Positions 4,710 to 36,481 of a stretch of 64,000 bases of DNA are shown piece by piece (the first letter of the stretch is position 1; the number at the start of each line of letters is the position of its first letter). Source of the stretch: Lophium mytilinum (taxonomy: Eukaryota > Ascomycota > Dothideomycetes > Mytilinidiales > Mytilinidiaceae); NCBI GenBank assembly GCA_010093605.1, contig MU004181.1, positions 1,922,001-1,986,000 of the forward strand, in the 5' to 3' direction. A model generated the notes under the pieces. That model saw nothing but the letters and a program-made list of their open reading frames with translations. It did not search any database and had not been told where the DNA came from. The translations under genes and the position numbers were made by a program.

Positions 4710-4715
4710 GCGGGG
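4710..4715. promoter_or_regulatory. GCGGGG site upstream of C2H2 regulator A
   Basis: GCGGGG matches the GNGGGG site predicted from the finger contacts of both cluster C2H2 proteins. It lies about 120 bases before the regulator's ATG. Binding is inferred, not shown. Confidence 0.4.
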
Positions 4716-6252
4716 TCCCGTCCGAGCCAGGGGCTGCCATGACTTGCCACCAAGCATACCTAGACACGGCAAGGAAAGACGGTCAAATCACACGCCACTC
4801 AGCAGTAATGCGTTCACGCACGTGCCGCCAGCCACTCCCTTAGTGCCAGCCATCCCATTGCATTTGCCGGTCGCGAAGTCTATTGCACGGACCTGGGTAT
4901 CCAATCCTTGAATTGACTCGGCAGCTGTGCCATGATCACTCATCCTCCAGTTGCTGGTTATGATTTGGTGAAAAGTTGAATGCTTTGACTGCTTCACAGC
5001 ATCAGCGGCCTCCTCCTCGACGGCGCTTCACAGCCTCTGTGCTATAGCTCTACAGTAAGTATCTAGAAGAGATCAACCTCATAGATTAATTGCATGGCAA
5101 CATTCACTCACATCCTCCTGGTAACACGCAGAACTGGTTGGGGATCTTGCTTTTACCATATATTACCCTAAAACTGCCCTGCCTGAGCTAGTCAAGATGG
5201 GGAGTGGGAAAACGAGAAAGCATGGAGACCCTGAGAAGTTTTCAAGAATTCCCAGGAGAAGAAACACCCATCATCTCTTCGAATAATCTCTCCAGTGCCT
5301 GGGGTTTGATTGCATCCTGAAAAGCTAGCGCACACATTATCAGTCACTCGTTTCCGACTGTTCCAGATCCAACTCCATGTCTCTAAATCAGTATCAACAC
5401 AGCCCATGCCTTGTCCCTCCCCCTGTCACTTCAGGTAGCCCATATGCGGCAAATCGAGACATCCCAAAAGTTGGGCGGCCAAAATCGATGCTGAGAGAGC
5501 AAGGTCAGATATTCATCCCCGTTGGTGCTTATGAGCTAGGGGTTGTGTCTTTTCAGCTCCAATGGTGAAAATGTTCATGCATTCGTGTTGGTTGACTGTC
5601 TCGTTATTATATCTGAACATATAGTCATCTTCAGCAACCTCCCGCTCAGGTTGCAATAAGTTGACTAGTTTATTTAGCGATTTAACCACTCTTGAGCAGT
5701 CCGAGTGTAACTAACTGTGAGCTAGAGATTCTCTCTTCACGTAGCCCATCCTGCTGTAAAGATGGATCCCGAAGTGGGGCTGTGATAATATTTAGGGAAA
5801 TTTATCATGATGTAAGGATGAAGCAAAGAGAACTCGACGATGATCTTTCCATAGGACATCCTAGAATTTTTATGCGGCATTCGTTCGTCGTCTTCGAGAA
5901 TGACACGCAAGGTGCTGTTGCCGAGGGTGTCAGAAGTCGCCGGATAAAGGCAGAGAAAAGAGATCGATATGTTATTTCTGACCTTATAGATACCGAACAC
6001 CCGTATGGCACTGATAAGGCCCACTTCACTGTTCTTTCTCGGTCGGCTAAGAGCTGGAGCTATATCGTTGGGAGCCTCTAGATAATAGGAGATCCCAATC
6101 TCCTGTAGTTGCTGCCTGCCCTCTCTCACGTCAAAATGCCGACATTGGCCAATCATTTTAGGACGATTTTGGGGATGAAGGCCAGTCTCTGCCAAGCCTA
6201 TTTACCCCATGAAGTGAAGTGAGGGGCCCCTTAGCGAGGGGCTTCCCCCTTA
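4716..6252. other. Intergenic region between C2H2 regulator A and the SDR
   Basis: About 1.5 kb with no ORF that resembles a known protein. Open frames on both strands at 5692-6195 overlap each other and have no recognisable domain, so I leave them out. The right end is G/C-tract rich (GGGGCCCC at 6223-6230) and leads into the palindromic site at 6253. Confidence 0.5.
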
Positions 6253-6265
6253 CCCCACAGTGGGG
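6253..6265. promoter_or_regulatory. Perfect palindromic CCCCAC/GTGGGG site before the SDR
   Basis: CCCCACAGTGGGG is a perfect inverted repeat with 6-bp arms around one base, 190 bases upstream of the SDR ATG. Each arm is the predicted target of the C2H2 regulators. A TACCCCAT half-like site lies at 6203-6210. Confidence 0.5.
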
Positions 6266-6455
6266 TTTTAAACAGATTTACACGGCAAGACCAAATCTGG
6301 GGTGCTATTCTCCAGTCATGAACATCATTTCCAATGCCGCGCATCAAAAGTAGTGACTCGCTTAAGACTATAAGGGTTGAGGGCGTTGATGGCGGGGAGA
6401 ATTTTGTCCTGTGAGCTGGTGGCCAATCCTGTTCGACAATCTCTGTTTTGGAAAC

Positions 6456-7469
6456 ATGACAACCTACAACCTTAAGAATGCTGAGTTCGAGGCGTTGAAG
6501 GGGAAAGTCATTTTGATCACTGGAGCTGCGACTGGCATTGGAAGAGCTACGGTGGAGCTTGCACATAGTATGTCTTCACAAGCTGCTGCGCCAAAGCTAT
6601 ATACTGATACACCGGCAGAGTATGGGGCAACCGTTGCGATTGGAGATTGGAATGAAACAGAAGGCGCGAAACTTGTGGCCAGTTTGAAAGAGTGTGTTCT
6701 TCCTATTACTGACATTGCTTTTAGCTGATGTTGTGATATGTAGGCGCGTATTGTTCCGTAAATGCGACGTCACCAAGTGGTCGGACGTACTTGCACTCTT
6801 CGAGGAGACCCGCAAGACTTTCGGTATCATCCATGCGGTTCTTTCCAACGCTGGCGTCAACCAAGAAGACCTCCTTCTTGACCACTTCGATCTCAAGACT
6901 GGAGAGCTTCTCGCCCCAGATCGTAAAGTTCTCGATATCAATCTGACAGGGACACTTTACGTGGTCAAGTGTGCAGTACATTATTTCAGACAGTGGCCGG
7001 AAACACGAACCCAGATCGTGATGACTGGTTCTGCAGCCAGTTATATCGATACCCCCCCGCTTCACATTTACTGTGCTTCAAAGGCCGGGGTGCTGGGACT
7101 AATGCGCTCATTGAGGACACAGCTCGTCAAGGAAAACATCACCATCAACATGGTTGCGCCGTGGATGACTAGTAAGTTTCATATAGAACTGAGCCGCTTC
7201 CAAGCTGACTGCTATACTATGTAGTAACACCTATGCTGTTGCAAGAGATAGTCGATATGTGGGGAGATTTACCAGCCAACCGGCCTACTGGTGTTGGAAG
7301 AGCGATACTTCTACCAATAGTACGTCCAGAAGTGAATGGGAAGTCTTTCTTTGTGGCCGGCCACGAGATTGTGGATTTTGAAGACAAGCTTCATGATACG
7401 CAGCCGCAATGGATGGGGCAAAGCCTGAGTAAAGCCGTCGATGAAGGGCAACGGCGTCTTATTCCGTGA
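6456..7469 (+). CDS. Short-chain dehydrogenase/reductase
   Basis: Classical SDR of 285 aa in four exons: 6456-6567, 6619-6691, 6744-7171 and 7225-7469. It shows the cofactor motif TGAATGIG near residue 20, the catalytic Ser in MTGSAAS and the YCASK active-site pair. The acidic residue after beta-2 (GDWNE) favours NAD(H). Resembles fungal 15-hydroxyprostaglandin-dehydrogenase-like SDRs; the substrate is unknown. Likely oxidises an alcohol or reduces a ketone made by the cluster P450s. It is transcribed toward the P450 at 7776-9386; the 306-base convergent gap between them holds nothing I recognise and no GNGGGG site. Confidence 0.88.
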
Positions 7470-9386: not shown

Positions 9387-9537
9387 GATGCAGATTGTGA
9401 ATGCACGTCAATGATTGCGGGTCTTATTGCTGCAAACTGCCTATGAGAGGTTGGTGGTCGTAGATAGAATGCAAAAGCTGGAGCGCCGCTGAGGCATTTG
9501 AGATTCTGTTAGGGTCTTGAAAAGACTCCAGGAGTAG

Positions 9538-9614
9538 CCCCACCTTACCCCAATGTGGTAGTTGGTGAGTTGTTGACCCATGGAGTAGGCTGCGGGGTCC
9601 CCCCATTCCCCCTC
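9538..9614. promoter_or_regulatory. Site cluster CCCCAC / GCGGGG / CCCCTC between P450 A and esterase A
   Basis: CCCCAC at 9538, the near-palindrome TACCCCAATGTGGTA at 9546-9560, GCGGGG at 9592 and CCCCTC at 9609 (within CCCCCTCATTGGG) sit in the divergent promoter gap. They match the predicted GNGGGG target and could serve both genes. Confidence 0.45.
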
Positions 9615-9848
9615 ATTGGGCGTAACCTAACCTAATAGGTGGTCGGTTCGAATTCCCGGAACGCCCGCGCTGTCGTTGGCGAGTGGCGCGGAGAGAGAAG
9701 TATAGCCAGACAAGCTGCTCACGGCTTACCACGTTCGGGGCCAGCTACTAGCACGGTCATTTTGGTATTCGTAAACGACGTCCCTCTGTGTATTTGGCCT
9801 TGTCGCCCCCTCGTCGATCGTAAAACCTGGCCCGTCCTGAATGGAAAC

Positions 9849-11765
9849 ATGGAAATCCTTCTCAGTCATCGCGACATAGGCACTATCAAAGGGATCAGAT
9901 CAGCCGGCGTAGCCCAATTCCTAGGGGTCAAGTATGCGGCGCTTGCTGATCGTCTCGCTCCTCCAACTCTAGTGACCAGCTATGCGGCCGATCCAATCGA
10001 CGCGACGACATATGGGTGCGTAACAAGCCTCCTACAGCGTTTCATGGCAGCTTGACTGACCATTACAGTCCTAGTGCAGTGTCTCCACCAATGGGATGCG
10101 ATATGGAGTTTGGCATCATCCAGCACTCGTTGCCCAAACCTCAACAGCTACCATCGTCAGATCTTGACTGTCTAAACCTAAATATCACTGTGCCGCTCGA
10201 TAGCTCAGGTGAAATACATACTGCAGGCAAATTACCTGTGTTTGTCTTCATCCATGGCGGTGGTTTTGGTATTGGAGCAAATTGGTGGCCGCAGTATGAT
10301 GCCGCCGAACTTGTGCGCCTATCCAAGGCTAAGGGGAAGCCGGTTATTGGAATCAATATCAAGTAAGATCACCGTTTAGCTCAACTCAAGCCTTTAGCCT
10401 ACATCTTTGCCGAGAGTACCATCTGAACAGACATGCAGCTACCGTCTTGGTGCGCTAGGGTTCCTCACATCGAAAGAGCTTCGTCAGGCTGGATATCCGG
10501 GCAATAACGGCCTCCGTGACCAGAGGGCTGCACTGCAATGGATCAGGAAATTCATTGGAGTGTACGGAGGGTCCTCAGATGAAATAACAGTTGTTGGCGA
10601 AAGTGCCGGAGCTTGTAAGCGACCTTTTTGCTGCTTCAGAGTGTGTGAAATTCTAATCATTGTGCTCTACCAGTCTCCGCGACCATGCTCCTACAATCCA
10701 AAGAACCTTTGATGAAACGTACTGCTGCGTTTGGGGGATCACCACTTCTGTTCAAACCTCTCCCACTGCCGGTCACCGAGTTCGCGTATGAGAGTGTTCT
10801 TCAAGCTTTAGGACTTGTCGACAAGTCGCCAGAGTCTCGTATCCAAGCTCTTTTAGAAATACCAACGGATGAGCTGTGGCAGAAAATTCCACCCGCAATC
10901 CCGATGATGCCCTTCATGGACGACGATATCGTGACTGCCGAACCGACCTTCGCCATGTTTTATGGTCCGCTCGATCGTACCGAGCTAGCCTTTCCAGGAC
11001 TCAAGTGGTGCGAGGGCCTCATGGTGGGAGACTGTCAGTTTGATGTAACTGACCCTTCCCTTCCTCTCGACTTCCAAACATGAGATTTCAAATCTCAGGT
11101 GTCTGTTTTCAGATAGTACTAACACGCAAGCCATATAGGGAAATGTCTTTGGCCACATCGGCCTCCACGATCGCAAGACCGGCATAGCTACCGCCTTCAT
11201 AAGGTCGGTCGAGGCCACACTGAAATCTAATTCGACAGCAACGTCCGCTATTCTGGAGGCATACCAAATAAGGACGGATACGAGCGACGACGACGCACTG
11301 AACTCCATCTTGCAATTCGCAAGCGACATCACGTTCTACGCGCCAGCAATCACCATCGCCGCGTATTGGCCCTCCACCAGGAACTCCAAATCGTACCTGT
11401 TCCACTTCAATGAACCAAATCCGTGGGATGGTCTATACAAAGGCAAGGCGTCGCATGTTCTAGATGTGGCATACCTGTTCCAGAACTTCGCGAAGCATTT
11501 GACCGACGATCAGAAGGCCGTTGGTCGCGCTCTTGGTTCGGATTTCATAGAATTTGTGAATGGAGGTTCACCGTGGCAACCCGTTTCGGCTGGAAAGATG
11601 TGTGCTAGGGTTTATGGCCCCAGCGACGCAAAGGAGACTGCTAAGCTGGTTGATTCAAGCGACACGGTGGAGTCGGGGAGGAACAGAAAGATTCACGACC
11701 TTGCCAGCCTTGTTGGCTGTGATGCTCTTGCAGAAGTCTATATTAAGTTCTTCCAGGGAACGTAA
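9849..11765 (+). CDS. Type-B carboxylesterase/lipase (A)
   Basis: Carboxylesterase of 544 aa in five exons: 9849-10015, 10069-10362, 10439-10614, 10674-11044 and 11139-11765. The oxyanion-hole motif HGGGFGIG and the nucleophile motif GESAGA are intact; a C-terminal His in KASHVLDV is the likely catalytic base. No signal peptide is seen, so it is probably intracellular. ATG 9849 is chosen because an ATG at 9841 soon stops. The family hydrolyses carboxylic esters; here it may free a phenolic acid or alcohol. The introns after the TYG codon and in GDCQFD|G match positions in the esterase at 34280-36057, so the two are paralogs. Confidence 0.88.
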
Positions 11766-12229: not shown

Positions 12230-13966
12230 TTAAAGCTTAATTCCCTGTTTTTCGCCCTCGACGAAAGTCTCTCGAATAATCCTGGCGTGTTTGGTGGAGC
12301 GCACAGTGATCTGACACTCAAACGGCTCCGGAACACTGAGGAACCCTCTAACCATCCTCGTGGTGGGCTCTACGACTCCGCCATCCAGTCCCTTTTTCTT
12401 GGCTATGTTGAACCCCCATAAAGTACGCACGATGTTGATATAAAGAGAGCGCTCAGCGACATGCACACCTGGGCATACCCTCCTTCCTGCCCCGTACGTG
12501 AAATGGTCTCGCTCGAGTGGGCTTTGAACGTTGATATAATGGGCCGTAGGTAGGGGCTTGTTGAGAAAGCGCGCTGGATCAAACTGTTCTGGTTCTGGAT
12601 AGAGCTCTGGATTCATGTGGATGGCCCTTTATCGTGACTTAGTCATATTCTCGTCTGACAGCTTCTGGCGGGAAAACTTACCACCAGTTCAAGATCGCTA
12701 CGGAGCCCTTGGGGATGAAGTGACCCTCATACCAGTCGTCCTCACTGGTTGCATGCATCATGCCAAACTTGTTGACAGGGCGCCAACGCAAGATCTCCTT
12801 GACCATACTTCTCGAGTACGGGAGATTCTGCTCATCGTTCCAATCCGGGAGTCGATCTGAGCCCACGACACGATCAATCTCCTCCTGGGCTTTCTTGGCG
12901 GTCTCCGGGAAAAGGACCATGGCTAGGATCCAGTTGTTCAGAGTTGTTGCTGTTGTCTCCGAGCCGGCTTCGACGAGGCCCCCGCATGTGTAAGCTGCGA
13001 GTAAATCATCGATGCCATTCTTCTTTGGGTCGTCAAGGTAGAACTGCTTGCAGAAACAGTTTGCGGCAGTACCCTCGTCCACCTCCTTCTTCAAGCGCTC
13101 CCACAAGTCTAGGTATACTTTACTGTCGTACTTGAATACGCTCTCAGCATAGCTACGCCAGTTTCCAAGCATCCACTGGGGCAGGTATGCCAAAGAAGGG
13201 AAGCTGTCTACTACATGTGCGCCTGGTGCTGTCATCTCGGTCAAATTGTCGAGGACAGTATAGATTTTCTTGATCAGGGGATCGTTCCACGATGGGATCC
13301 GATAGCCATAGGTCACCAGCATGATGACAGAAGCAGAGTAGCGCCGATTTATGGAGTAGAACTCGTCAGGCTCGTTCAAGAGATCGTGTAGAACTTGCTT
13401 TGATTCAAAGTCCTGCACGGGTTGGTACTTCACGGCGGTGGTTGAGCTAAGAAGCGCGTGGCTATGTTTACGAAGCTGTCTCCATTGCGGTCCATAGGCC
13501 ATGAACAGCTGTCGGCAAAATCGACTGGCGACATCTTGGGCCAATGGAAGGGGAGGTCTCGAAGAGTAGATTGCCGATTTCTTGTCCATCAAATCTTTGA
13601 CAGCTTGTGGCGACGAAAGCCACACATAGTCCGCTCCGCCTATCTTGGTGTAGAACACATCACCGAATTGTCGGTGCCATTGGACTGCTTTGGCTCGGAC
13701 CAGTTCAGAATCAGCCAGGTCGAATAAGTTACCAACAAGCGGCAATCCTTTTGGACCGGGTGGAAGGCGTCGCCTTCGCGAATCCTAAATGAAAAGCGGA
13801 GTCAGAAGTGTCTTAATGCTGCCGAGACTAGACTTGCACATACCCTGATCACATTCGGAACGGTAAAGAAATATACAGCAACTAAGAGCAAAACAGGCCC
13901 AACAACGAGCACAAGCGAAAGGGGGATGTGGGGCATCAAGCCACCAAAAAGCGCTGCGAATGCCAT
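12230..13966 (-). CDS. Cytochrome P450 monooxygenase (B)
   Basis: P450 of 540 aa. Exons on the minus strand: 13966-13844, 13784-12682 and 12626-12230. Exon 1 encodes the membrane anchor; exon 2 opens with the proline hinge LPPGPKGLPLVGN. The I-helix is EAGSETT (Glu instead of the usual Asp), ExxR is in KEILRWRP, and heme binding is FTYGAGRRVCPG. It is clearly related to P450 A (shared AIYSSRPP-like region, shared C-terminal layout), but no intron position is shared, so duplication is not recent. Substrate unknown, probably an aromatic intermediate. It is divergent from the decarboxylase-like gene at 14426. Confidence 0.9.
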
Positions 13967-14116
13967 GCTTGTATCGGATAGTCAACACAGCCTCCAGGAC
14001 AAAACAACTGCAACGAGTCGGACCAATGCTTATACATACACAAACGCCCCAGCTAAGAAAGCGGAAAGTAGCTGGTGGGCTGAATGTGAGCGTGGGGAGG
14101 CGCCAGGGCCGAATTA

Positions 14117-14138
14117 CCCCTCAGTGGGGAGACCCCTC
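14117..14138. promoter_or_regulatory. Palindrome CCCCTCAGTGGGG plus CCCCTC
   Basis: CCCC-N5-GGGG at 14117-14129 has the same spacing as the site at 6253; a further CCCCTC is at 14133. It lies between P450 B and the decarboxylase-like gene, about 160 and 300 bases from their ATGs. Confidence 0.5.
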
Positions 14139-14425
14139 GCAACCGCCCAGAGCCTACTCCTGAACTGTACTGAAGTTGCATAGTCCTACCCCCATCTTTA
14201 AACTAAGTGGGATATGCAATGGATGTGAGGAACTTCTCTCGCCATCTGCGACCTTCCGCATCCCGTCACCGCCGCCGACGACGCGCCCCCTGACGTTGCT
14301 TATAGAACTGCTCAAGTCTCGTATGTATCATCTCAATCACGAGCCTATTCCAACCTTGGGCATCCCTGCAAATCATTGACCGCTGACATTTCAGAAGTTT
14401 AGGACCGTCTATCTGTTCTCGAAGG

Positions 14426-16778: not shown

Positions 16779-16892
16779 GATTACGGTAGAATGAGAAGCA
16801 AGGTAGTAACAGGACTTTCCGCACAACAATCAGAGGAAGCAGCATCTTTATTGACTGCGCCACAGCGAAGCAGAGCAGTCGAGATGGCGGGG

Positions 16893-16933
16893 GAGGGGCA
16901 AGCAATGCGGGGCCAACTTGGGGAGCTTCCCCA
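16893..16933. promoter_or_regulatory. GAGGGG, GCGGGG and TGGGGAGCTTCCCCA upstream of FAD monooxygenase
   Basis: GAGGGG at 16893, GCGGGG at 16907 and a perfect 15-bp palindrome at 16919-16933 lie 115-155 bases before the ATG. The palindrome has the G and C tracts in reverse order (GGGG-N5-CCCC) compared with the sites at 6253 and 14117. Confidence 0.45.
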
Positions 16934-17302
16934 GGTCAACGTACCGGCGACGGCAAAGGACGCCTGGTAAGGCTTCGTCAGCCAGTAGCTACTGCGTGTA
17001 GGTGTAGCTTTTCTGCCGTGGAGACAGGGGGCTGCATCAGGTGCCAGCGCCAGGTCGCTAACACACCACACTCCACTTGCGCAGTGACTGCATCAACGAG
17101 CTTGTATGGAAGAATCGGCTGCCTCGATCGCGTTGTGTGCCACGAGAAAGTCAGGAAAGATTGGAGCGCAGCTAGGTTTGATCGAGACATCCTTTCGGCA
17201 TGGCGTCGCTTGACACACGTGACACCACGTGATGTGCTAAGCTTCAAGTATTTTCATTTGTGCGAGAGCTACAGGACTTCATATACCCGCCCGAAACATC
17301 TA
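16934..17302. other. Intergenic stretch
   Basis: About 370 bases between the hydroxylase promoter and the 3' end of dehydrogenase B. No gene seen. Two close CACGTG E-box-like words occur near 17216-17235. Confidence 0.4.
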
Positions 17303-18354: not shown

Positions 18355-18489
18355 GATATAGCACCAGACGGGCAGAAAATTGTTGCTAGGGACAAAAAAA
18401 AAATGCGAATACTGTCGTTGGAAAATTGTTAGGTGTGTTTTCTAAGGAGAGTTGCTGGTTTTATCGGGCCGGCGATTGAAGAGGATCAG

Positions 18490-18591: not shown

Positions 18592-18704
18592 TACATAAAT
18601 GCTCAACGACGCGTCGGCCAATCATCAGCTTGCCCAGGGACAGTATTGCGGCCCACATCTGACAAGTATTGCAAGTTTAAATTTGGGGCTACCAGTGCCT
18701 CTCT

Positions 18705-22323: not shown

Positions 22324-22354
22324 TGGCTATCCTGGCGGGCAAGTCGTTGAAAGG

Positions 22355-22437: not shown

Positions 22438-22774
22438 ATGCAAACCACCCTCCCACACGAGACGAAGTGGCCTGGAGAGCAGCTCGAGCAAAGCATGGCG
22501 ACCCCTCGCCCCTGGAGAGAGGGCGGCACCCGTGTCAGGCTATACTGGGGGGTCGCATTCGAGCCGCAAGCCCACGCTGGCCTTAACTTCGGCAAAGTCA
22601 CGGCGGGGCTATTGATACGTACGGGCAGTGCCCTTAATACAGCCACCGCTACGGTTTGGGCAGGTGGTACTAAAGAATTGCTACGCATCTACTTCAGCGT
22701 CGCCTTTTTGCATTTCATATATTGTATATTTTCGAGCCCTTGAATTCCCACGAGCCTACTCTCGCAGCAGCGCA

Positions 22775-23938: not shown

Positions 23939-26894
23939 TCAGGAGACGCGGGCCCAGCTACGATAGTCTTTCTCGAATTGGCTTGCAAGCTCTTGCAGCA
24001 CTGAACCCATCCTCGGTGTTATGCCCCATACCCACACGTCATCTAGGGCCAGTTAGAACACAAGCGCAAATGCCGGCCACCGGCCGCAACCACCATCGTG
24101 ACTTACCAAGAAGGCTGGCCCACGTCGTCGCGACAGCCGCGGCCAGCGACGAGTCCCCGGAATAGTCACTCTCAACCTCCGCGAGGAGCTCTTTAACCTG
24201 GTCGAGAATCTTGCGCTCCCCTTCATCGGGATCCTGTACAGCCGACGATTTCTCCACCGTGTGGATCCATTTCGTAAGGAACAGTGCTATGGTGGAGGGT
24301 TACTCGACTGTTGCAATCAGAAAACACATGCAAAGGGCCTGCACTCACCACTGTCCCATCCCGCTACAGCGTGCTCGACGCTCCAATTGAACGCGGCCGT
24401 CTTCCTCACCAGCATCAAGCCAATTCTCACCGGCGCAAGTAACCCTTCGAATGCCTTGGCAACGGCCTTGGTATGGTGATGGCTACGCTGCTGCTTGGCA
24501 AAAACGTACACGGTCAAGGCTTGCTTAACCTCCTGTGGATTGTCCGCGAGCAACGCCATACGGTTGAAAGCTGCGGAATCCGTAAAGATTCGGTTGTACG
24601 CAATTCGCAACAGCGCTCTACAGTTGAACATAAGTGGGCCCTCTGTTTCGCTCCATGTGGAACCAGGATCATCGGCATGGCCTTGCGTGAGGGCCCCCTG
24701 GCACCTTGCGAGCGCTGTCGATGCCGCTGACAGCAAGACAGACTGGAGCGACCCGTCCGGGCCGACTTCGGACGCGTCCTGGCTGAATGACTGCGTGAAC
24801 TGCAGCTGGGTCCACATGTGCACGTTTACGGCGTGCATGAGGACAACGGTCGTGAATGCAGAAATACAGAGCGGACTGGAGTTGACGCTGTCTTCCTTTC
24901 TGGCTAAAATGAGCGTCGCCATGGCCTCACGAATGGTTTTGATCGGGCTCGAAACTTGAAAGTCTCTCAGACTAGCCCACTGCTCAGTCGAAGAGGCATT
25001 CCAGAGCTTCTCTTCACATGGCATCTCGATGATGAGGTCGTGGGTTGTCGAAAACCCAGGCGTCACGCCGTACGTTATAGCAATCATGTCGCTCAGGATG
25101 AAGAAGGCGCAAAGAACCCTAGTTTCGTTAGAAAAGAATCGAAAGGCCAAGGGTAAGCCAAATGTGGCTGCTGAGAAGAGCCAACAAGCAGGGCACTAAG
25201 TTCACAACCGGTGTGTCGCGGTAGCTTACCTTTTACTCGATTCCTTACAGGTCCATTCCTCCCAGGTCAAATCCTCATCCCGTCTCGTATCCGCGAGCAG
25301 CGCCGTCCTCCTCGCCGAGTAATCCACCACAAAAAAACCTAGCTTAGAGATCATCGCCTTCGCAATTGCCGGCTTGTCGCCAAACATGCCGAATACAGCT
25401 AACAGGGTGCGGGTCTGCGCAATCCACAGCGGACTTGGAGCTAGCGACGCGCCGAGCATATTTGGAATTGAATTTGCTTCCAGCATCTGCGTGGCAAGCT
25501 GATACAGACTCTTAGACCACTTCCGGTCGAGTCGGTAGAGCGCGCCTATTGCGCAAACAGCGAATGTTAAAGGGCTCGGCGTAGTGTGCAGGTCGAAGGA
25601 GGCGAAGTGGATGATGGGGAGGTGGCGGTGAAAGCAGTTTATGTAGCTTGTCACGAATCTTTGTATGTCCTTGGCACTCGGCAGGGGCGTTTGACTGCAT
25701 TCGTTTGCCTTTAGTCGGCTCTGCACGTCTCTATGCATCTGCTGGTACGCTAAGTCCTCGATTCTTGGATTTGGCAAATGAACGCCGCTATCCCATGATA
25801 TAAGAGGTAGGTTGGCGAATGGATTGCCGGTGTGTTCGTTCGCGAATCCGAGCGGGTGTCCCTGTATATTTGACTTCTTCCTCTCGGCGGCCTTTCCAGC
25901 TACAGACGAGTGCTCGGACCCCGACGCCCTGAGTTGTGGTGGGCGGGGAGTCTGCTGCGGTTGCCCTTGGTGCATCGTCTGCTCATTGTCTGGGCTGAAT
26001 CCGACGTTAGTCATGAAGGCTAAGTCTTGGAAGACGTTGAAGTCTGATCCAGTGCCCAGGTCCATGTTAGCCCACTCGTCAAACGGCTGCGGCGGGCTGA
26101 CGTCCTGCTGCTCGATCATGTCTCCGGGTTGCTGGTGCTGCTGCTGCAACGGAGATAGCAAGGCCTCTTGGTCGGGCATATTGACAGGAATCACGGGCTG
26201 GAAGTGGGATGAGTTTTCTGCCGTGAAACTGGTGGGCGGCGCATGTTGAAACGAGTCAAGATCCATATCTGGAGCCCCATCGATGCAGAAGTCCAATTCG
26301 GAGCCGAGATGGAAGTAGTCATCCACCCGTCGGGTCTGCGTAGGCGAGAACGTGCCTCCTGATGCTTGCGAAGAGCGCGAAGCGAGGTCGTTTGCTGGCT
26401 CTATGGCTGCACCTGATGGACTTGCCTGAGGGGCATCCTCGGGCGGTTGGTTCGCGAGCGCAGCCGGACGGCCGACATTGATGGTGTCGCTGGTGTCGAG
26501 CTGCCGTCGTTGCCCAGCGGGGGGAGCGGCGGCGGTGTCAACCGGATGGATGGACCTTTCGTGCCTCTGGACTAGGTCTCTGCCGACGGCGTGGTCAGTC
26601 TTTGCGCTTTAATAGCGGAGGGCCGAGGGGAGACTTGCTTGCGGGCGTAGCGACGTGTGCAGAAGCGGCAGGCAAACGGCTTCTCTTGAGTGTCTGCAAC
26701 ACCGGTGAGGCCAGGCCGGCGGCGGCGGAGAGGCGAGCGCGAGGTGTAAACTTACGAACGCGTTCGTGGCGGGCACAGTGCTCGCTCCGCTTGAACTCGC
26801 GGTGGCAGCTCCGGCACTTGTGGATTCTTCTTGGCCGACCCGTCTTAGTAGTGGAGGTGTCTGGCGGTGGAACCTGCAGGTCGGTGAGAGACAT
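23939..26894 (-). CDS. C2H2 zinc-finger regulator with fungal-specific TF domain (copy B)
   Basis: Regulator of about 865 aa. Exons on the minus strand: 26894-26756, 26693-26639, 26579-25230, 25118-24349, 24286-24107 and 24042-23939. Fingers lie at residues 27-47 (C27, C30, H43, H47) and 55-76 (C55, C58, H71, H76). Contact helices RSEHCAR and RKDLVQR carry the same -1/+3/+6 residues as copy A. The intron inside finger 2 uses a GC donor (AA|GCAAGT), same place and phase as the copy A intron. The fungal-specific TF domain includes YINCFHRHLPIIHF. The final exon (DVWVWGITPRMG) matches copy A, which supports the splice model. A glutamine/proline-rich linker separates the fingers from the TF domain. 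It is divergent from the MFS transporter. Confidence 0.88.
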
Positions 26895-26914
26895 TGGGCG
26901 TGTCCACGATGGGG

Positions 26915-26951
26915 GAGGGGAGTGGTGGAGGCGGGGATGGGTGCGGAGGGG
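26915..26951. promoter_or_regulatory. GAGGGG, GCGGGG, GAGGGG upstream of C2H2 regulator B
   Basis: GAGGGG at 26915 and 26946 and GCGGGG at 26931 lie 20-60 bases before the regulator's ATG. The region is G-rich in general, so chance matches are more likely here than elsewhere. Confidence 0.35.
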
Positions 26952-27496
26952 ATCGTGTCGGGGGTGGATGCGAAGCTGAGCAGTATGGTTGCCAAGCCGG
27001 CATGTTCGAGCTGCTCGGTCTGCCGAGCGTGAAGGCCAGGGGAGCAGCCGATCAAGCGGGGAAGGGGCCTGGGCGGTCTGTGCTGAGGCTAATTTTGACC
27101 ATCCTTCTCGACATTTTGCACACAGAACTCGCATGCACCGAAAGCTTCTACAGAGCTATATTCTAGCTACACGATTGCACTTTGGCCTTATCGTAGTCAT
27201 CAGGAATACTGCCATTGCGTTCTTGACAGGCTCAAAGGCAGTCTTACTATCTCCCAATAGTCTGAACCACGCTCAAGTTCCAGGACAATATCATCGGTGC
27301 TTTCAGACACAAATATCGTGCTAGAACGGACTCTTCGTGCATGACTCAAGCATTCCTAGACGGAAAATCAACATTGACACTGCGAGTGCTCGCCTTGCAT
27401 TATCTAGCTAATCTTCTGCGTATTTAGTAAGCCTTATACACCATGTTCATGGGCACGCGTCCCTCACTGCGCTATCACGTGGCTGTCAGGTACTTA

Positions 27497-27528
27497 CCCC
27501 ACACCCCGCATTCCCGGTCATACCCCAC
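27497..27528. promoter_or_regulatory. Triple site CCCCAC-CCCCGC-CCCCAC upstream of the MFS transporter
   Basis: CCCCAC (27497), CCCCGC (27504) and CCCCAC (27523) lie about 255-285 bases before the transporter ATG. The rest of the 26952-27781 gap holds no gene that I recognise. Confidence 0.5.
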
Positions 27529-27781
27529 ATTACCGCCCTGGGTTTAGCGTCAATTCCCCATACTATCGTCGGCCAATGGCAGGTCAACGTCAGCGAGGGT
27601 CTGGACCTACAATGCATCTCGATTGAAGCCACAATTGTGCCAACTTGTAAATAAAAAGGATGTCAGGGTAGCTAGAAGATGTTCAAATCAATCGTGCAAA
27701 CGGCCAGCCTCTCTTAGAACAGCACGCTCTTCTTCAGTCTACTCTTGTACTTTACGTTCTAGCTCAGATTCGTTTACCACC

Positions 27782-29452
27782 ATGGGCTTTGGAATCCTCG
27801 AGGACAAATCAGACCTCGCTCATGTTCCGGGCACTGTTCTCCTCGCCGAGAAGATATCACAACCTGGTGACGTTCTCGCACAACTCAAGCATGGCAGTGG
27901 AGCAGATGCTCAGATCGTACTCGTCCCACAGCCTAGTGAGGACCCCAACGACCCCCTGAATTGGCCATACTGGAAGAAACTGTCCATTGTTGCCATTCTT
28001 GTGTACGGCTCTTGCCTATGCGCCGCAACAGTCGGCCCTTTGCTGAACGCAAGCATCGCTGTGCTCGCCATGGATTTCAAGACATCTTTCAAGGACATCA
28101 CTCTCATGTCTGGCTATCAACTCCTGGCTGCTGGCTGCTCCGGCCCGATTGTGTCTGCTCTGGCGAGGAAATATGGAAAACGTCCAGTATTCTTAGCTTC
28201 TTCCCTCTTCGCAGTAATAGGGTCAATTATGGGCTCGGCATCCCATTCTTACAATACTCTACTTGCGGCTCGCATCGTCCAGGGGTTCTCTATTTCCGCA
28301 TACGAGTCCATCATATTCTCAGTTATTCCGGACCTCTTCTTCCTCCACCAACGTGGACTGTTCACGGCCATCGTGAGCTTTACGCTAAGCGCTGTCTCCA
28401 ATTTGAGCAGCGTTGTCGCAGGGGCTGTCACGAACAATCTCGGATGGCATTACCTGTTCCACCTCCTCATAGTTACCGTGGGCCTACAGCTCATCCTGCT
28501 ATATCTGTTCGTGCCAGAGACGACTTATCATCGCGACCGTCTTTACGAAGTTGACCTAGCCTCGACCGACAACCTCCAAGAACTGGCAGAAGCTGAGGCT
28601 CGGCACGACCCAAGAACACAGAAAGCTATCCAGGACCTCAAGATCGAGAAGACCGTTACAAACACCAGCTCAGTACCTCCGCCCAAGAAGACTTTCATCC
28701 AAGAACTTGCAATATTCACGGGCACCCACAGCGACGAAAGCCTCATCCAGCTCGTCTTCGCTCCGGTATTGTGCTGTCTCAATCTGGGAGTTCTGTGGGT
28801 GGTCGTCGTCAGTGGCACCGTGACGTCCTTTTACGTCGGCATGGCCTATGTCGCCGCCCAGATTTTCTCTTTCCCTCCATACAACCTTACCGCAGCCGGC
28901 GTGGGCTACTTGTCCCTTGGACCATTTCTTGGCGGTGCACTCGCCTCCATCGTGTTAGGTCTAACCAACGACCCTCTGATTATCTGGTTCACAAAACGCA
29001 ACAAAGGCATCTTCGAGCCTGAAATACGTCTTTTACCAATCATTTTCAGCTCCGTCGGTGGTGTTGGCCTTATTCTATACGGTGTGCTCGCTCAAAGAGG
29101 AGACAACCTTTACCTAGTGGACTTCATGTGGGGCCTTATGCTCTTCGGAGCCGTCTTCATCTTCACGTCGGCCTCGGCGTACGCTATCGATGCGTACCGG
29201 GACATGAGCAGCGAGCTGTTCATTGCCAGCATGATGTTGAAAAACTTCCTATTTTACGCTTACAGTTACTTCATGAACGACTGGGCCGCTTCTGCTGGAC
29301 CAGCCCAAGTGTTTGAAGTTTTTGGCGGCGTGTACTTTGCACTGGCGCTGACTACCATTCCTCTTTATATCTTTGGAAAGCGATATCGAAGCTTCTGGCA
29401 TCGTCATAACCTTTTGGAGATGCTTCATGTTCGCACTCACTCTGCGTTTTAG
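27782..29452 (+). CDS. MFS transporter
   Basis: Intronless membrane transporter of 556 aa with about 12 membrane segments. The cytosolic N-terminus ends in EDPNDPLNWPYWKK, a hallmark of fungal drug:H+ antiporter-1-type MFS proteins. Motif-A-like SALARKYGKRPVF lies between segments 2 and 3, and RIVQGFSISAYESI in segment 4. A long central loop follows segment 6. ATG 27782 is chosen over upstream codons because it opens the family N-terminus. It is the only transporter in the cluster, so it probably imports the substrate or exports a toxic intermediate; direction is not readable. Confidence 0.88.
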   Translation: MGFGILEDKSDLAHVPGTVLLAEKISQPGDVLAQLKHGSGADAQIVLVPQPSEDPNDPLNWPYWKKLSIVAILVYGSCLCAATVGPLLNASIAVLAMDFKTSFKDITLMSGYQLLAAGCSGPIVSALARKYGKRPVFLASSLFAVIGSIMGSASHSYNTLLAARIVQGFSISAYESIIFSVIPDLFFLHQRGLFTAIVSFTLSAVSNLSSVVAGAVTNNLGWHYLFHLLIVTVGLQLILLYLFVPETTYHRDRLYEVDLASTDNLQELAEAEARHDPRTQKAIQDLKIEKTVTNTSSVPPPKKTFIQELAIFTGTHSDESLIQLVFAPVLCCLNLGVLWVVVVSGTVTSFYVGMAYVAAQIFSFPPYNLTAAGVGYLSLGPFLGGALASIVLGLTNDPLIIWFTKRNKGIFEPEIRLLPIIFSSVGGVGLILYGVLAQRGDNLYLVDFMWGLMLFGAVFIFTSASAYAIDAYRDMSSELFIASMMLKNFLFYAYSYFMNDWAASAGPAQVFEVFGGVYFALALTTIPLYIFGKRYRSFWHRHNLLEMLHVRTHSAF

Positions 29453-30021: not shown

Positions 30022-31552
30022 TCAATGCTTCGAGTTCCCATTCAGAGTAGTGCTCTTCAAATTAGCCATAATCTTCTCAACTTCCTCCTTGTGCCCCGAA
30101 AAATTATCCACCAGACTGTCCCACATTTTCGGCTCATGCTCATGCTTCTTCTTGCTATTCCATGCGTACTCCGTGATGGTGAATGGCCTGCTACTCTCAA
30201 ACATGAAAGCGATGGAACCCTTGGAGATTTGCATGACTGGAGGGTCGGCCTTCGAAGCCTCGGCGAACTCTTCATACGCAACACCATGAGGTACCATGCC
30301 GCACTCGAACGAAACGCTGCCTGGCTGGAACTCATCAGATCGGCCGCCGTAATCTCCATATATGAGGCCCATGAGCTCAGACGCCGCGTTGCGATGATAG
30401 TAAGGCGGCCGATACGTGTGAGACGCAACGTCCCAGCGCGGTGAGAAGATCAAAATGTCTGCCAGCGGAGCCGTCGGATCGCGCGACCTCGCGGTCAGGA
30501 CACAGAAGATGGACGGGTCGATGTGGTCTACTGAGATGGATCCCACATTGACGAACTTGGTGAGATCGTACTTGAATGGCACGTAGTTGCCGTGCCACGC
30601 AACGACGTCGAATGGGCAGTGCCGCTGGGTGCTCTTAAAGAACTTGCCGCCAAGCTTGTAGATAATCTCCCATGGATCGTCTTGCGTGACTTCGTAGGCC
30701 GCCTTGGGGTGGAGGAAGTCGCGAGCGTTTGCGAGCCCGTTGGCTCCAAGAGGACCTAGCTCGGGAAGTTCGAAGTTTGAACCCCAGATCTCGAGAATGT
30801 ATCCTCGGGTAGGGCCATCGACCTTGACTTTGAAGCGTTGGCCTCGTTGGATGATGCAGATCTCGCCGGGTTGAACGTAAAGATGTCCATACTCGGTTTG
30901 GATATCTAGCGCACCCTGTTGTGGCACAATGCAGAAGTCTCCGTCTGAGTTTACAAAGGCTCGCTTCTCCATGCTTTGATTGCACAGATAGACGTGTGTA
31001 GCTAGACCTTCCCTCAACATGGGATCGCCGGCGCCTGCGATCGTTTTCAGCCCGGAAACGAAATCGACCTTGTCGCTGCTCTCCGGAAGATCGAAAGGCA
31101 GCCAGGCCAGCTGAGTCGGAGAGACGCGAACCCGAGGATTTATAGGGAGGAAGTTTGATTCCGTATCATTATTATCAGGCATGTCGGTCTACGGCCATAG
31201 TTAGATCTAAATATATGAATGGGTACGAGAAAGTACTCACAAAGCCTTGATGAGCAACCGCAGGCCGTGCGCGATACAACCATGCCTTCTTGTTCAAATG
31301 CCTCGGAGCAATAAAAGAAGAAGCAGTCAGTTGCTCGGCGTATAATCCAAAGCGAACGCATCTGGGGCTATTTTGACCCTGTGGAATGGTACCGGGGATA
31401 GCTTCAGACTCAAAGGAATTGCCTAAGCCGGCCATGTACTCGTATGGATCATTCTTCCGAGTAGCGAACGACGGGACGGCGCCATTCTTCTGCGTCTCGG
31501 CCCAGTGGAAAATATCCTGATACTCCTTGGAGTTTGACAGTTCGGCAGGCAT
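30022..31552 (-). CDS. hmgA: Homogentisate 1,2-dioxygenase
   Basis: Ring-cleaving dioxygenase of 492 aa; exons 31552-31241 and 31188-30022 on the minus strand. It follows the family end to end: YMAGLGNSFESEAIPG near the N-terminus, the cupin segment with YGHLYVQPGEICIIQRGQRF, then YYHRNAASELMGLIYG and MVPHGV, which hold the His/Glu/His iron ligands. The enzyme opens homogentisate to maleylacetoacetate with O2 and Fe(II). A gap of 47 bases with GTGAGT and GTAG ends supports the intron. No isomerase or fumarylacetoacetase gene lies in the window, so either those act from elsewhere or the true substrate is a related hydroquinone. The promoter carries two GTGGGG sites. Confidence 0.96.
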
Positions 31553-31662
31553 GGTGGATTTGATGTAATGCTTACACGAAACGAGAAGAAATGGTATTGG
31601 GTGACTGGTTTGTATCGATTGGCTCAGTATTTAGATGTGTTGTATATGAATCTATGATGAAT

Positions 31663-31722
31663 GTGGGGATGGTGGGGTAGTTAAGGGGGCTACTAAAGTG
31701 GTCCGATGGGGCGATGGAGGGG
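31663..31722. promoter_or_regulatory. GTGGGG, GTGGGG, GAGGGG upstream of homogentisate dioxygenase
   Basis: GTGGGG at 31663 and 31672 (9 bases apart) and GAGGGG at 31717 lie 111-170 bases before the ATG. A separate CCCCATTGGGG palindrome is at 31961-31971. Confidence 0.5.
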
Positions 31723-32713
31723 CACCGAAATGGGCTGATGGAACATCCCGTGCCGTTTTTGACTCTGGCAACCGAAATAATGAGACGAACGAAAAGGTCC
31801 TTTAGGCAGATGTCTACAATGTAAACTTTTAAAGATCAAGATCTACATTTTTACTAAAGCTAGTACAGGCCTCTATATCTTCGGTATCTCGCGAGTACAT
31901 ACATTGAACTCCCCGGTATGTCTCGCTAGAATAGCGGACAATTGAGTAACCCGACGGTTTCCCCATTGGGGTATCTCGTATTGAACGCTGGAAGTAGGAC
32001 CTGTGGCTTCGTTTAAACCATGATCGTAATGCGAACTTTTGCTAGAACATCCCGGAAAGGACGATCTTGATGTTTCTATCTACGTGTCACCCCTCCTCTG
32101 CCGTCAGGAGACTTGAGACTGTGAAGTATCGATACGGTACGGATATGATCGAGGAGCTAGACTGCTTAGAGCATAGATTGAGGCATGGAAGTATCTCAGA
32201 ACTCCCTGGCAGCCAACAAGCTTTAGAGAATACCAGTGGGCCAAAATTCGGAAAATTGCTGCATTGGTTGACATCAACGTAGTCAAAAGTAGCGATGATG
32301 ATCGGTATTCGATATGTCTATTATTGCTACTCATATAGAGTGCAAGATTTAATATCTATGATCTTAAGCCATATAGAATGTCACATATCGGCTACATCAT
32401 TGCACTTTGCTGGCTCGGCTTGCATAGAACAACATACTTTGGTGAGTCGGCAAGGGGGCAGATCAACCAGGAGACTGCGCTCACTCATTGTGAGTATTTT
32501 GCTTGCGAATGTCGATACATGCGCCAGCACCAGCTCAAAGCAGGATAGTGAGATTGAAAGTATGCATGAGGCGAAGTAGAAAGTAGTGATCGAGCCTATT
32601 GGACGCAAAGCTTAGTAGAAGCAGGGCTAGGCTACCACAGAGAAGTTTCTATGTAGATGTTCTTTGAGTGCGACCAACGCGTTCAATTACTATGTGAACC
32701 ATTTGCGTAGAAT
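31723..32713. other. Intergenic region between dioxygenase promoter and maleylacetate reductase 3' end
   Basis: About 1 kb, A/T-leaning. Short open frames occur on both strands but none has a recognisable domain. Only the CCCCATTGGGG word at 31961 stands out. Confidence 0.45.
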
Positions 32714-33848: not shown

Positions 33849-33928
33849 AATTCAACAAAATGTTTGGTGAGCGTTGCAAATCCAGATATCTCGGGCATAT
33901 CTTCAGATAATGGATATGCAGGGCAGCG

Positions 33929-34176
33929 TGGGGTCAGGCCCGCAGCAGGTCTGTTTGATAGTTAAAAACATTCCTTAAAACAAGACACTTACAGTACAGC
34001 AGACGAGCGGAAAGAACAGGAGTCAGCCTAGACTGGATTAGAATGCCTGTTCGTACCCCACCTGGCCCTTGATAGCTCCCCTTGCACGTTTGGTTTTGTC
34101 TCCTCCGCTTTTTTGATCTCTTCGCCCCGTGGGGCGTGCTGCTCTGAACACGAAAATCTACCCCACTTCCGCGGGG
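33929..34176. promoter_or_regulatory. Multiple GNGGGG/CCCCNC sites in the reductase-esterase B gap
   Basis: GTGGGG at 33929, CCCCAC at 34056, CCCCGTGGGG at 34125-34134, CCCCAC at 34161 and GCGGGG at 34171. The last two face each other across four bases. The gap serves two divergent genes. Confidence 0.5.
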
Positions 34177-34279
34177 AACACCGTTTGGGGAACACAGTCA
34201 AGAGTTATGGACAATGCATCTACAGACCGCGGAGGGCTCGCAGAACCTCTAGACAACGTCTCTATAGTCTCTCTTCGCA

Positions 34280-36057
34280 ATGTCTGTCACACTGAATCAT
34301 GCCTCTCTCGGTGCCCGCCTGGAAGGACTCGAGGTTGGGAAGCTCTGGCAGTTCAGAGGCATCCAGTATGGAACAATACCCGCCAGATTTGCGCGAGCAT
34401 GCCCGAAGAAGCTTGAGGGTAGAGTGGACTGTACTCGTTACGGGTATTGCTTCTCAGACTGGTGGTCAACACAAATGTTTTCGCTGACTTGAGTAGGCCT
34501 CGTTGTCCGCAACTGAACTTCGATGTGCGACACCTTCTCCGTATCCCTCAAGATATCGAGCTGCCCGCTGAGCCAGAAGACGAATTTCAATGCCTAAACC
34601 TAGACGTGACGATGCCGCCTCTCAAGCCAGGGCCCAGGCCTCAGTTGCTGCCTGTTTTATTGTGGATTCATGGTATGCTTTGCTGTGTTTCGAGTAAGAG
34701 CAGTGCTTACCTAATTCTGTTCTAGGTGGTTCCCAGATTGCGACATTCGGGAGTTCGGCTTCAGGATTATGTGGTCAGTTTCTTTGCTTCGTATTCCGTC
34801 CCCATCTCTACTAGACAACTTTAACGCAAACCCTGTACCACAGATATGACCAGAATTGTGTCTGACTCGGTAGATCTTGGGTACCCGTTCATAGCGGTGG
34901 GTATTCAATATCGGCTGAACATGTTCGCTTTTGGGAACGGCAAAGGAGAGAAGAATCTAGCTCTCAAAGACCAGAGGCTAGCGATCGATTGGGTTGTGGA
35001 ACATATTGGAGGATTTGGCGGCGATCCAGTATGAGTTCCCAGCACTCTAAAGTTATACAAAGTCAGTGTTTGTGTCTAACCTAAGCTAGGCAAACATAAC
35101 TCTTGCTGGCGAGAGCGCGGGCGCGGTCTTCTGCCATGCACATGTCGTAGCTCAAGCTCCGATACACCAAGCGATACTTTCTTCGGGAACACTATATCTA
35201 TCGCCACCATTACCAGTCCAGAATGGCACTGCTCTCATAAACAATGTGGCTAGGGAGCTCGAGAAACTGGGCCACAAAGATATGGAAACTGCTCCACCGC
35301 ATATTCTTCTCAAAGCGCAGGCCAATCTCGGCATTAAATCTGTATGGATTCAAATGGAACCTGCCTTTGAGGACTGGGAAAATAAAACGGGAAATACTAC
35401 GCAGTTACTCATTGGAGATGTCGAGTTTGAGGTACGCTTCTACTACAGCTTTTCAATGCGGAAGGAGACTAACATAGTCAGAGTATCATATGGAGGAATG
35501 GAATCGAGATGCTAGAGCCCGATTACATTGCAAAATGCTTCGACAACCTCGGGGACGACAGTGCGGCTGTGAAGCGTTTGTACGGCATCTTGCCCGACCG
35601 AAGTACATCTTGCAAAATCGGAGCTCTTGACTTGATTACCGACCAGAGGTTCGCGCTACCGGTGGAGAAGGTTCAACGGCTATGGTTGAACTCTGGAAAG
35701 CCTGCCTACCGGTACTTACTGGATCAGCCAAATCCCTGGCAATCGTCGAATCGTTCTCATCATGCTGTGGATTTGGTATTTCTTTTCGGCGTATTCGACA
35801 CTTCAAATCCAGCAGCAGAAGCTGTTGGAAAGGCGATGCGGACGAAATGGATAGAGTTCATAAATGGGAGGGCCCCGTGGGATTCTTCTCGTGCTTTCGC
35901 GTTTGGGCCGTATGGAGAGGCGCAAAGTATCGATCAATCTGTGGTAGACATGCGGAGACGACGAGCTCATCTAGACCTCGTGAGCAAAGTAGGTTGGTCA
36001 AAGTTTAACGCGGCAGTTGTGCCACTGATTATGGGCCGTGTCAGCCTACTCAATTAA
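34280..36057 (+). CDS. Type-B carboxylesterase/lipase (B)
   Basis: Carboxylesterase of 496 aa in six exons: 34280-34443, 34497-34672, 34726-34773, 34844-35028, 35090-35431 and 35482-36057. The nucleophile motif GESAGA is intact; the oxyanion motif reads HGGS rather than HGGG. Near the C-terminus, HHAVDLVFLF carries the likely catalytic His. Introns after the TRYG codons and before SIIWRNG fall at the same positions as in esterase A, showing common descent. It is 48 residues shorter than A. Presumably cleaves an ester in the substrate or an intermediate. Confidence 0.86.
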
Positions 36058-36455
36058 TACTATCGACTCAAACAGCTCGCAGGTGATGATTGAATCCACC
36101 TGATGTCCCTCTGAGGAAATACAAGCGATGTGGCCATGATTTGTAGTTCGATATTAACTTGATCAAGGTAGAAAAGGAACGAAACAAAGTGATAGCAGGA
36201 GTGACGGCTGATCAAGGAACAGCCACTGCTAATTATTCATTGACCAGAACCAGCAACTCCATGGGTTGAACGTGGAGAATTGCTCACTGCGCTCTTACGG
36301 CGTACATATCGACCGGAACGTTCACTTACCCATGACGGAAAGCCATTGCGAGAGTGGCAGGAGAGGGTTCTCGCACAACTCTGCTCAGTCCTGATTGAGC
36401 GTAAGGTGTTTGACTGCAACGGGGCTCTTTTCCCGACTCCACACCATCTAGCAAA

Positions 36456-36481
36456 CCCCGCAAAACCCCCAGAATGCGGGG
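36456..36481. promoter_or_regulatory. Inverted pair ACCCCGCA ... TGCGGGGT before P450 C
   Basis: CCCCGC at 36456 and GCGGGG at 36476 form an inverted repeat with perfect 8-bp arms, about 125-150 bases before the ATG. A TATATA word lies near 36558, about 50 bases before the ATG. Confidence 0.5.

Follow-up and report, generated by a model that had tools for sequence, protein, structure and literature searches.

The stretch analysed, referred to here as the window, comprises 64,000 nucleotides of contig MU004181.1 of Lophium mytilinum (contig C1 below; C1:1922001-1986000, in a genome of 43.18 Mb on 24 contigs). Together with the 10 kb adjoining it on the left (L009, C1:1912001-1922000), it holds a cluster of 23 genes spanning ~48 kb, two of which encode paralogous regulators, Reg1 and Reg2, each combining a pair of C2H2 fingers with a Fungal_trans domain. 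The subject of this report is a short G-rich site, GNGGGG/CCCCNC, scored on both strands, which was predicted from the finger residues of these regulators and was found to rank first among the words of the cluster promoters when these were counted without bias across 11 promoter gaps, where it also gains flanking bases.

The cluster, its genes and its promoter gaps

Genes were named from Pfam matches and reading frames, not every exon being scanned, and positions 48001-64000 were covered by means of open reading frames and scripts. The left boundary drawn earlier did not hold, as both the cluster and its sites run on into L009, the cluster extending left of the window by at least 9.3 kb. The genes, in window positions unless stated otherwise, are as follows.

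L009, left to right: FAD_binding_4 oxidase; cytochrome P450; FAD_binding_3 monooxygenase; epimerase-like gene
L009, after the epimerase-like gene: gene 31% identical to the window's lactamase-fold hydrolase, its pieces giving no Pfam match
Left of Reg1: 3-hydroxyisobutyrate dehydrogenase-like gene, first cluster gene inside the window
1498..4589, minus: Reg1, two C2H2 fingers and Fungal_trans; 957 aa model spliced by hand (exons 4589-4357, 4294-2824, 2775-1917, 1861-1677 and 1623-1498, minus), PF04082 found in pieces
6457..7469, plus: short-chain dehydrogenase (SDR), PF00106
7776..9386, minus: cytochrome P450 (P450a), PF00067
9850..11765, plus: carboxylesterase-like gene CE1 with several introns, from open reading frames; last exon 27% identical to CE2, the single piece scanned giving no Pfam match
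12230..13965, minus: cytochrome P450 (P450b), PF00067
14426..14839, plus: carboxymuconolactone decarboxylase family (PcaC-like), PF02627, with TIGR02425 below its cut-off
15184..16780, minus: flavin adenine dinucleotide (FAD) monooxygenase of aromatic hydroxylase type, PF01494
17303..18353, minus: 3-hydroxyisobutyrate dehydrogenase-like gene (second copy), PF03446 and PF14833
18705..19643, minus: metallo-beta-lactamase fold hydrolase, PF12706
19988..21919, plus: Zn2Cys6 regulator, PF00172 and PF04082
22775..23662, plus: alpha/beta hydrolase, enol-lactonase-like (PcaD-like), PF00561, with TIGR02427 below its cut-off
23939..26894, minus: Reg2, two C2H2 fingers and Fungal_trans; six exons, 865 aa spliced model
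27782..29452, plus: MFS transporter, PF07690
30022..31551, minus: homogentisate 1,2-dioxygenase homologue, PF20510 and PF04209
32714..33849, minus: iron-containing alcohol dehydrogenase/maleylacetate reductase type, PF00465 and PF25137, the latter name being inferred from context
34280..36057, plus: carboxylesterase CE2, PF00135
36606..38498, plus: cytochrome P450 (P450c), PF00067, drawn as the right-hand end of the cluster

The gene set probably represents an inventory for aromatic catabolism. Several members are paired within the cluster, namely the FAD monooxygenases (56% identical), the regulators (41%) and the dehydrogenases (41%), as well as the P450s, esterases and lactamase-fold hydrolases, which suggests from sequence similarity that two modules may have merged. 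Three homogentisate dioxygenase homologues were found in the genome, the other two, at C8:1823239 and C15:37050, being 53% and 51% identical to the cluster copy; the regions taken as upstream of these two hold 2 GNGGGG each in 1.2 kb, which is near background.

The complete promoter gaps and the sites that they carry are listed below.

4590..6456, Reg1/SDR gap: 7 sites at 4710, 5774, 6221, 6236, 6253, 6260 and 6392, with CCCCACAGTGGGG at 6253-6265
9387..9849: 5 sites at 9538, 9592, 9599 (GGGGGG), 9609 and 9807
13966..14424: 4 sites at 14092, 14117, 14124 and 14133, with CCCCTCAGTGGGG at 14117-14129
16781..17302: 3 sites at 16887, 16893 and 16907
18354..18704: 2 sites at 18490 and 18586
19643..19987, bidirectional: 2 sites at 19815 and 19833
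21920..22774: 10 sites, including a 13-bp tandem array of CCCCTC at 22355, 22368, 22381 and 22394, followed by CCCCGC at 22401 and CCCCAC at 22408
26895..27781, Reg2/MFS, bidirectional: 7 sites at 26915, 26931, 26946, 27056, 27497, 27504 and 27523
31552..32713: 4 sites at 31663, 31672, 31717 and 32090
33850..34279, bidirectional: 5 sites at 33928, 34056, 34129, 34161 and 34171
36058..36605: 2 sites at 36456 and 36476

Enrichment, form and extent of the site

A total of 51 GNGGGG was counted in the 7889 bp of the 11 complete promoter gaps (4590 to 36605; 6.5/kb), two of them being GGGGGG, with 7, 5, 4, 3, 2, 2, 10, 7, 4, 5 and 2 sites per gap from left to right. An earlier note on this DNA had claimed a site in every complete promoter gap, and each gap was indeed found to hold at least two; the 12 complete gaps that it counted became 11, plus a further gap astride the left edge of the window with one site (L009:9945), shared by the 23rd gene (window 204) and its left neighbour. 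The five convergent gaps that it named (7470-7775, 11766-12229, 14840-15183, 23663-23938 and 29453-30021) contain, as stated there, a single GNGGGG (position 12028) in a total of 1959 bp. One GGGGGG lies in a sixth convergent gap, 1204-1497, and the cluster genes hold 26 GNGGGG in 26951 bp.

For the background, 10-kb pieces were taken at even spacing from contigs C1 and C4, and 17 of the 18 were retained, an AT-rich one (L022) being left out. Coding DNA was labelled with a small Viterbi gene finder, whose training set comprised long frames and the hand-annotated window gaps, and this gave 79 non-coding stretches of at least 250 bp (65016 bp), promoter or not, with 147 GNGGGG. At this rate 17.9 sites were expected in the window gaps, compared with the 51 observed (2.84-fold), and GNGGGG took rank 1 of 2695 hexamer families (those with at most one internal N and no fewer than 5 occurrences), with a log10 P of -9.9 against -5.6 for the runner-up family. 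The probability of finding at least two sites in all 11 window gaps at the background rate is 2e-6. When promoter-type gaps were defined by gene-finder limits alone, the cluster yielded 50 sites (8.2 kb) and the background 111 (51.7 kb); 11 of the 13 promoter-type cluster gaps so defined carried a site, the two empty ones being pieces of 4 bp and 430 bp that lie inside genes by hand annotation. The form GHGGGG was present in 16/16 hand-set gaps (11 in the window and 5 in L009) and in 57/79 background stretches, with median densities of 6.7/kb and 1.9/kb, respectively (Mann-Whitney P 2e-8), and its 67 occurrences compare with a mean of 14.6 and a maximum of 25 in 300 dinucleotide shuffles. The promoters are not plain copies of each other, since blastn among them at E 0.01 returned no similarity. 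Convergent gaps are poor in sites within the cluster (P ~0.04 vs the background convergent rate), but those of the background are no poorer than promoters (2.58 vs 1.89 to 2.31 per kb).

The site itself is sharper than GNGGGG, at about ATGYGGGGT. The most enriched hexamers were GTGGGG (27 vs 6.4 expected, 4.2-fold) and GCGGGG (23 vs 6.0, 3.8-fold), followed by GAGGGG (17 vs 7.3, 2.3-fold); GGGGGG stood at 0.5-fold, CCGGGG and TAGGGG were also down, and ACGGGG (5, ratio 2.8) and AGGGGG (10, ratio 2.0) were slightly raised. The second base is therefore T or C rather than fully free, as had been proposed, because GAGGGG is weak and 5/16 of its window occurrences sit in the single gap 21920-22774. 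A T precedes the hexamer in 32/67 cluster sites vs 35/124 background sites (P 0.01), an A stands before that T position in 29/67 vs 31/124 (P 0.01), a T follows in 32/67 vs 35/124 (P 0.01), and a following G is avoided (5/67 vs 35/124, P 0.0007). Word lists compiled without any motif, and with the tandem array removed, were headed by GTGGGG and GCGGGG among 6-mers, by TGCGGGG and GTGGGGT among 7-mers, and by GTGGGGTA, ATGCGGGG, TGCGGGGT, ATGTGGGG and TGGGGTAA among 8-mers. The longer word TGYGGGGTAA was not above its control genome-wide (43+42 vs 58+54), and the relaxed HxnR site GNGGDG, excluding GNGGGG, was found at expectation (53 vs 54.6).

The sites lie close to start codons and to one another. 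The nearest site was located 21 to 293 bp upstream in 22/22 start codons examined, one site being counted for both genes in shared gaps and some starts being inferred. Pairs of sites no more than 30 bp apart numbered 38 vs 12.0 under uniform placement. The commonest offset was 7 bp (5 pairs vs 0.4 expected, two of the five coming from the array at 22394-22408), and the best count at any distance equalled that of this offset in 0.2% of simulations. The inverted CCCCNCNGNGGGG accounts for two of the five 7-bp pairs; it has 34 places in the genome vs 11 for the reversed control. Runs of same-strand sites were dropped as a cluster marker, not being above the reversed control genome-wide.

The sharp form continues and stops together with the cluster, while loose GNGGGG discriminates less well, as counted in L009 and L010, both of which lie outside the DNA that the earlier note covered. 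By gene-finder limits, L009 contained 17 GYGGGG vs 4.7 expected, 10 TGYGGGG vs 1.3 and 6 ATGYGGGG vs 0.4; with hand-set limits, which were chosen after the sites had been listed, the first two figures became 17 vs 3.0 and 10 vs 0.8. The convergent gap of L009 (4480-5244) holds 0 sites. The next 10 kb, beyond the cluster (L010), gave 4 GYGGGG vs 5.0 expected, 0 TGYGGGG vs 1.4 and 0 ATGYGGGG vs 0.4, and include a convergent gap holding 7 GNGGGG; non-coding stretches at 4011-6293 of L010 are rich in GAGGGG/CCCCTC and free of TGYGGGG. Across the 43.18 Mb of the genome, ATGYGGGG occurs at 1097 places on the plus strand, 13 of which fall in C1:1912529-1958474 vs 1.2 expected, a comparison weakened by the form having been picked after the sites were viewed and by the 46-kb span having been set by the sites themselves. 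Among the first 100 places listed, reaching to C1:2.97 Mb, the nearest neighbours of this peak are 80 kb away on its left side and 29 kb away on its right. Promoter gaps contain 10/13 of the plus-strand and 6/8 of the minus-strand cluster copies.

The two regulators and their relatives

Both regulators carry Arg/His/Arg (R/H/R) in finger 1 and Arg/Leu/Arg (R/L/R) in finger 2 at contact positions -1/+3/+6, as the earlier note had read them and as their translations confirmed. The fingers are located as follows.

4410..4472, minus: Reg1 finger 1, contacts R/H/R
4261..4388, minus: Reg1 finger 2, contacts R/L/R, split by the intron 4356-4295
26756..26816, minus: Reg2 finger 1, contacts R/H/R, the last His codon being completed after the intron 26755-26694
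26546..26670, minus: Reg2 finger 2, contacts R/L/R, split by the GC-AG intron 26638-26580

The two proteins are 41% identical over 558 aa, and the Reg2 model equals a deposited Lophium mytilinum protein (P0001, with PF04082) over 865 residues. The intron in the helix of finger 2 falls at the same codon in both genes, that of Reg2 being of the rarer GC-AG type. Two protein searches, in one of which the best 8000 candidates were scored, returned 72 related proteins; 54 of these, Reg2 and 11 without an organism name included, were taken as fungal, and 18 animal or unnamed rows were left out. The pair R/H/R and R/L/R was complete in 46/54 fungal relatives, the remaining 8/54 having no complete readable pair. 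In one gene model from Verticillium, a regulator of the Reg1/Reg2 family is joined to an orthologue of the left P450 of the cluster (58 and 63% identical in two pieces), and in one from Sporothrix such a regulator is joined to a P450 fragment (35% over 65 residues); both are read as probable cases of adjacent genes joined by annotation. A protein of A. nanangensis (P0013), which is not established as HxnR, is 38 and 39% identical to the cluster regulators over ~600 aa, and its gene model is fused to a PF01494 and PF07976 protein of the HxnV build; this monooxygenase part gave no match among the cluster pieces compared.

The nearest known parallel is HxnR, which regulates nicotinate catabolism in A. 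nidulans. The cited passages describe it as a protein that combines PF04082 with two C2H2 fingers, has its gene in a catabolic cluster and is required for the induction of the cluster genes and of its own gene; constitutive mutants suggest that it adopts a closed state when no inducer is present (PMC5746545, PMC8478523). According to the same passages, fungal pathway-specific regulators are generally of the Zn2Cys6 type, the C2H2 regulator HxnR being termed unusual (PMC5746545). A canonical site GHGGGG was predicted for HxnR and located in all target promoters but one, its binding sites being not experimentally determined according to the 2021 authors in the section cited (PMC8478523). This published prediction is the same as the word that follows from the contacts of Reg1 and Reg2, and it is this word that tops the promoter count. 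Like HxnR, Reg1 and Reg2 have two N-terminal C2H2 fingers and Fungal_trans and are encoded inside a catabolic cluster, where GHGGGG was found in 16/16 hand-set gaps. PF01494, SDR and MFS genes are likewise shared with the hxn cluster, but no hxnS-, hxnT-, hxnY-, hxnM- or hxnN-type gene was found among the pieces scanned here; the present cluster has instead P450s, FAD hydroxylases and a homogentisate dioxygenase, and two regulators of this class where hxn has one. Moreover, the motif found here is narrower (about TGYGGGGT) and was measured against a background drawn from the genome.

Other factors of related build were also compared. Zas1 of S. pombe, with two or three C2H2 fingers and PF04082, is reported in the section cited to bind CCCCAY in an electrophoretic mobility shift assay, most of the promoters analysed having at least two instances of it (PMC6028546); its build is that of Reg1 and Reg2, but its targets are condensin and other cell-division genes and no catabolic cluster. 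Klf1, likewise of S. pombe, is named, in the passage cited, as the closest characterised factor to HxnR (PMC5746545). Adr1 of Saccharomyces resembles both regulators in having two fingers, and the solved Adr1 fingers (2ADR) match both by sequence, but it is a carbon-source regulator and not a cluster regulator. Adr1 itself presumably carries the R/H/R and R/L/R contacts. The first half, TTGGRG, of its consensus as tabulated in the source cited, TTGGRGN(6-38)CYCCAA (PMC2536678), showed no enrichment in the cluster promoters (16 vs 13.1 expected), and a literature search for GTGGGG as an Adr1 motif yielded nothing usable.

Candidate readers of the sites

Taken together, the sites are probably the cis-regulatory code of an HxnR-like regulon with Reg1 and Reg2 as its two paralogous regulators. 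We infer that Reg1 and/or Reg2 would bind 5'-(A)TGYGGGG(T)-3', with GGG contacted by finger 1 and GYG by finger 2, upstream of the genes of the cluster (23 genes over ~48 kb), their own genes included, and that both would jointly switch the cluster on when an intermediate of the pathway, presumably that of an aromatic substrate, is present, as has been inferred for HxnR; the two may thus also regulate themselves. Thus one shared switch may run the whole pathway. Such a site would be a concrete candidate for a regulator family represented in many filamentous ascomycetes, would allow the borders of such clusters to be drawn from the DNA alone, and would offer a natural case of two paralogous regulators on apparently one code. 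A more tentative extension, possible but not favoured, is that the same sites serve both Reg1 and Reg2, which would compete for them or form heterodimers, for example by sensing the inducers of two merged modules through spaced TGYGGGGT.

As to the earlier proposal that the sites are read by the C2H2 regulators of the cluster itself, the contacts, the top word and the HxnR prediction agree with it, but the free second base, the exclusivity of the match and the left boundary found no support. Several observations weigh against binding by Reg1 and Reg2 or against the evidence for it. Within L009 and by neutral limits, plain GNGGGG reached no more than 18 vs 8.9 expected and GAGGGG 1 vs 2.8, and over all of L010, outside the cluster, GAGGGG numbered 8 vs 3.0. 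Of the ATGYGGGG copies in the cluster, 3/13 on the plus strand and 2/8 on the minus strand lie outside the gaps; three CCCCDC in a row on one strand were seen less often genome-wide (831+931) than in the reversed control (990+1061); and the A and T before and the T after the hexamer exceed what two fingers would read by the plain code. The background was drawn from two contigs, and the home-made gene finder had seen the window gaps in training. The R/H/R and R/L/R contacts recur in at least two C2H2 proteins encoded away from the cluster (L031 and L032), GYGGGG falls inside the CreA consensus, and TCYGGGG, which is of CreA form, numbered 3 vs 0.5 to 0.8 in L009.

The last two points lead to the strongest competing explanation, in which the global carbon-catabolite repressor CreA is the main binder and the catabolic cluster is simply rich in repression sites; this is regarded as unlikely. 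CreA, CRE-1 and Mig1 have two C2H2 fingers, as Reg1 and Reg2 do, but CreA acts as a global repressor; presumably it lacks PF04082. GYGGGG is a subset of the sites given in the cited passages for CreA/CRE-1, SYGGRG/SYGGGG, and for Neurospora CRE-1, TSYGGGG (PMC8844935, PMC7985698). SYGGRG as a whole was found 84 times vs ~43 expected, but this excess did not extend to the CreA variants other than GYGGGG, such as CYGGGG (7 vs 6.2 in the window and 3 vs 1.9 in the flank), SYGGAG (21 vs 17.5 and 3 vs 5.4, respectively), GYGGAG (14 vs 13.7) or, in the window, TCYGGGG (2 vs 1.5). It should be added that SYGGAG is, in the part of the literature considered, likewise not enriched in A. niger CreA targets. 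The excess of close pairs described above is in line with the preference for adjacent sites ascribed to CreA in that same part of the literature, and a protein of this genome (L038) has a CreA-type finger 2 (R/E/R; finger 2 alone being read). The Yarrowia element ACCCCACA, which contains the complement of the GTGGGGT form found here, was likened by its authors, in the passage cited, to the Mig1/CreA site (PMC4766638). A single sharp peak over one cluster would nevertheless be unexpected for a global factor. CreA may act additionally on the same GYGGGG sites.

Quite improbable is the notion that another C2H2 protein with the same contacts, either L031, L032 or an unlinked factor of Klf1/AN6733 type, is the real binder. 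The contact code does fail to single out the proteins of the cluster, because L031, L032 and yeast Rsf2 (P0059) all share R/H/R and R/L/R, and a match exclusive to the regulators of the cluster is not supported; unlinked factors, however, would not explain why the peak coincides with the very cluster in which two regulators of the predicted specificity are encoded. The Zn2Cys6 protein (19988-21919) is encoded inside the cluster and belongs to the class from which such pathway regulators generally come (PMC5746545, in the passage cited), but it is very doubtful as the pathway regulator with the G-rich words as its sites or as mere promoter architecture, as CGG and CGGN0-12CCG stand at 0.89 and 0.67 of expectation in the promoters, with no enrichment, and TCAACGT is a better candidate word for a second factor. 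Chance or base composition, to which the modest density over genes and gaps together (4590-36605; 2.4 vs 1.9 GNGGGG per kb in the background) might point, is hardly credible in view of the background non-coding DNA, the 300 dinucleotide shuffles (maximum 25 vs 67) and the left flank.

Among other words, AreA sites were not enriched in the cluster promoters (31 vs 29.1), and Gal4-type CGG pairs were rejected as a promoter code, not being enriched. TCAACGT occurs 8 times in 10.3 kb of cluster promoters, whereas the 65 kb of non-coding background contain it twice and the full 180 kb, with coding DNA counted in, 16 times; its cluster copies lie at window positions 16936, 22066, 22132, 27584 and 32274 and at L009 positions 2452, 8235 and 9925; it is possibly the site of the Zn2Cys6 protein. 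C1 as a whole has 24 copies of the word GGTCAACGT; 4 of these fall in C1:1924384-1949582, including one in the coding part of Reg1. Finally, imperfect repeats of AGAAAGGGTTT type were seen by eye at 39300-39480, in the gap that follows the cluster on its right-hand side, and an array of TTACTCCCA repeats at 44610-44860, around an assembly gap of 100 N.

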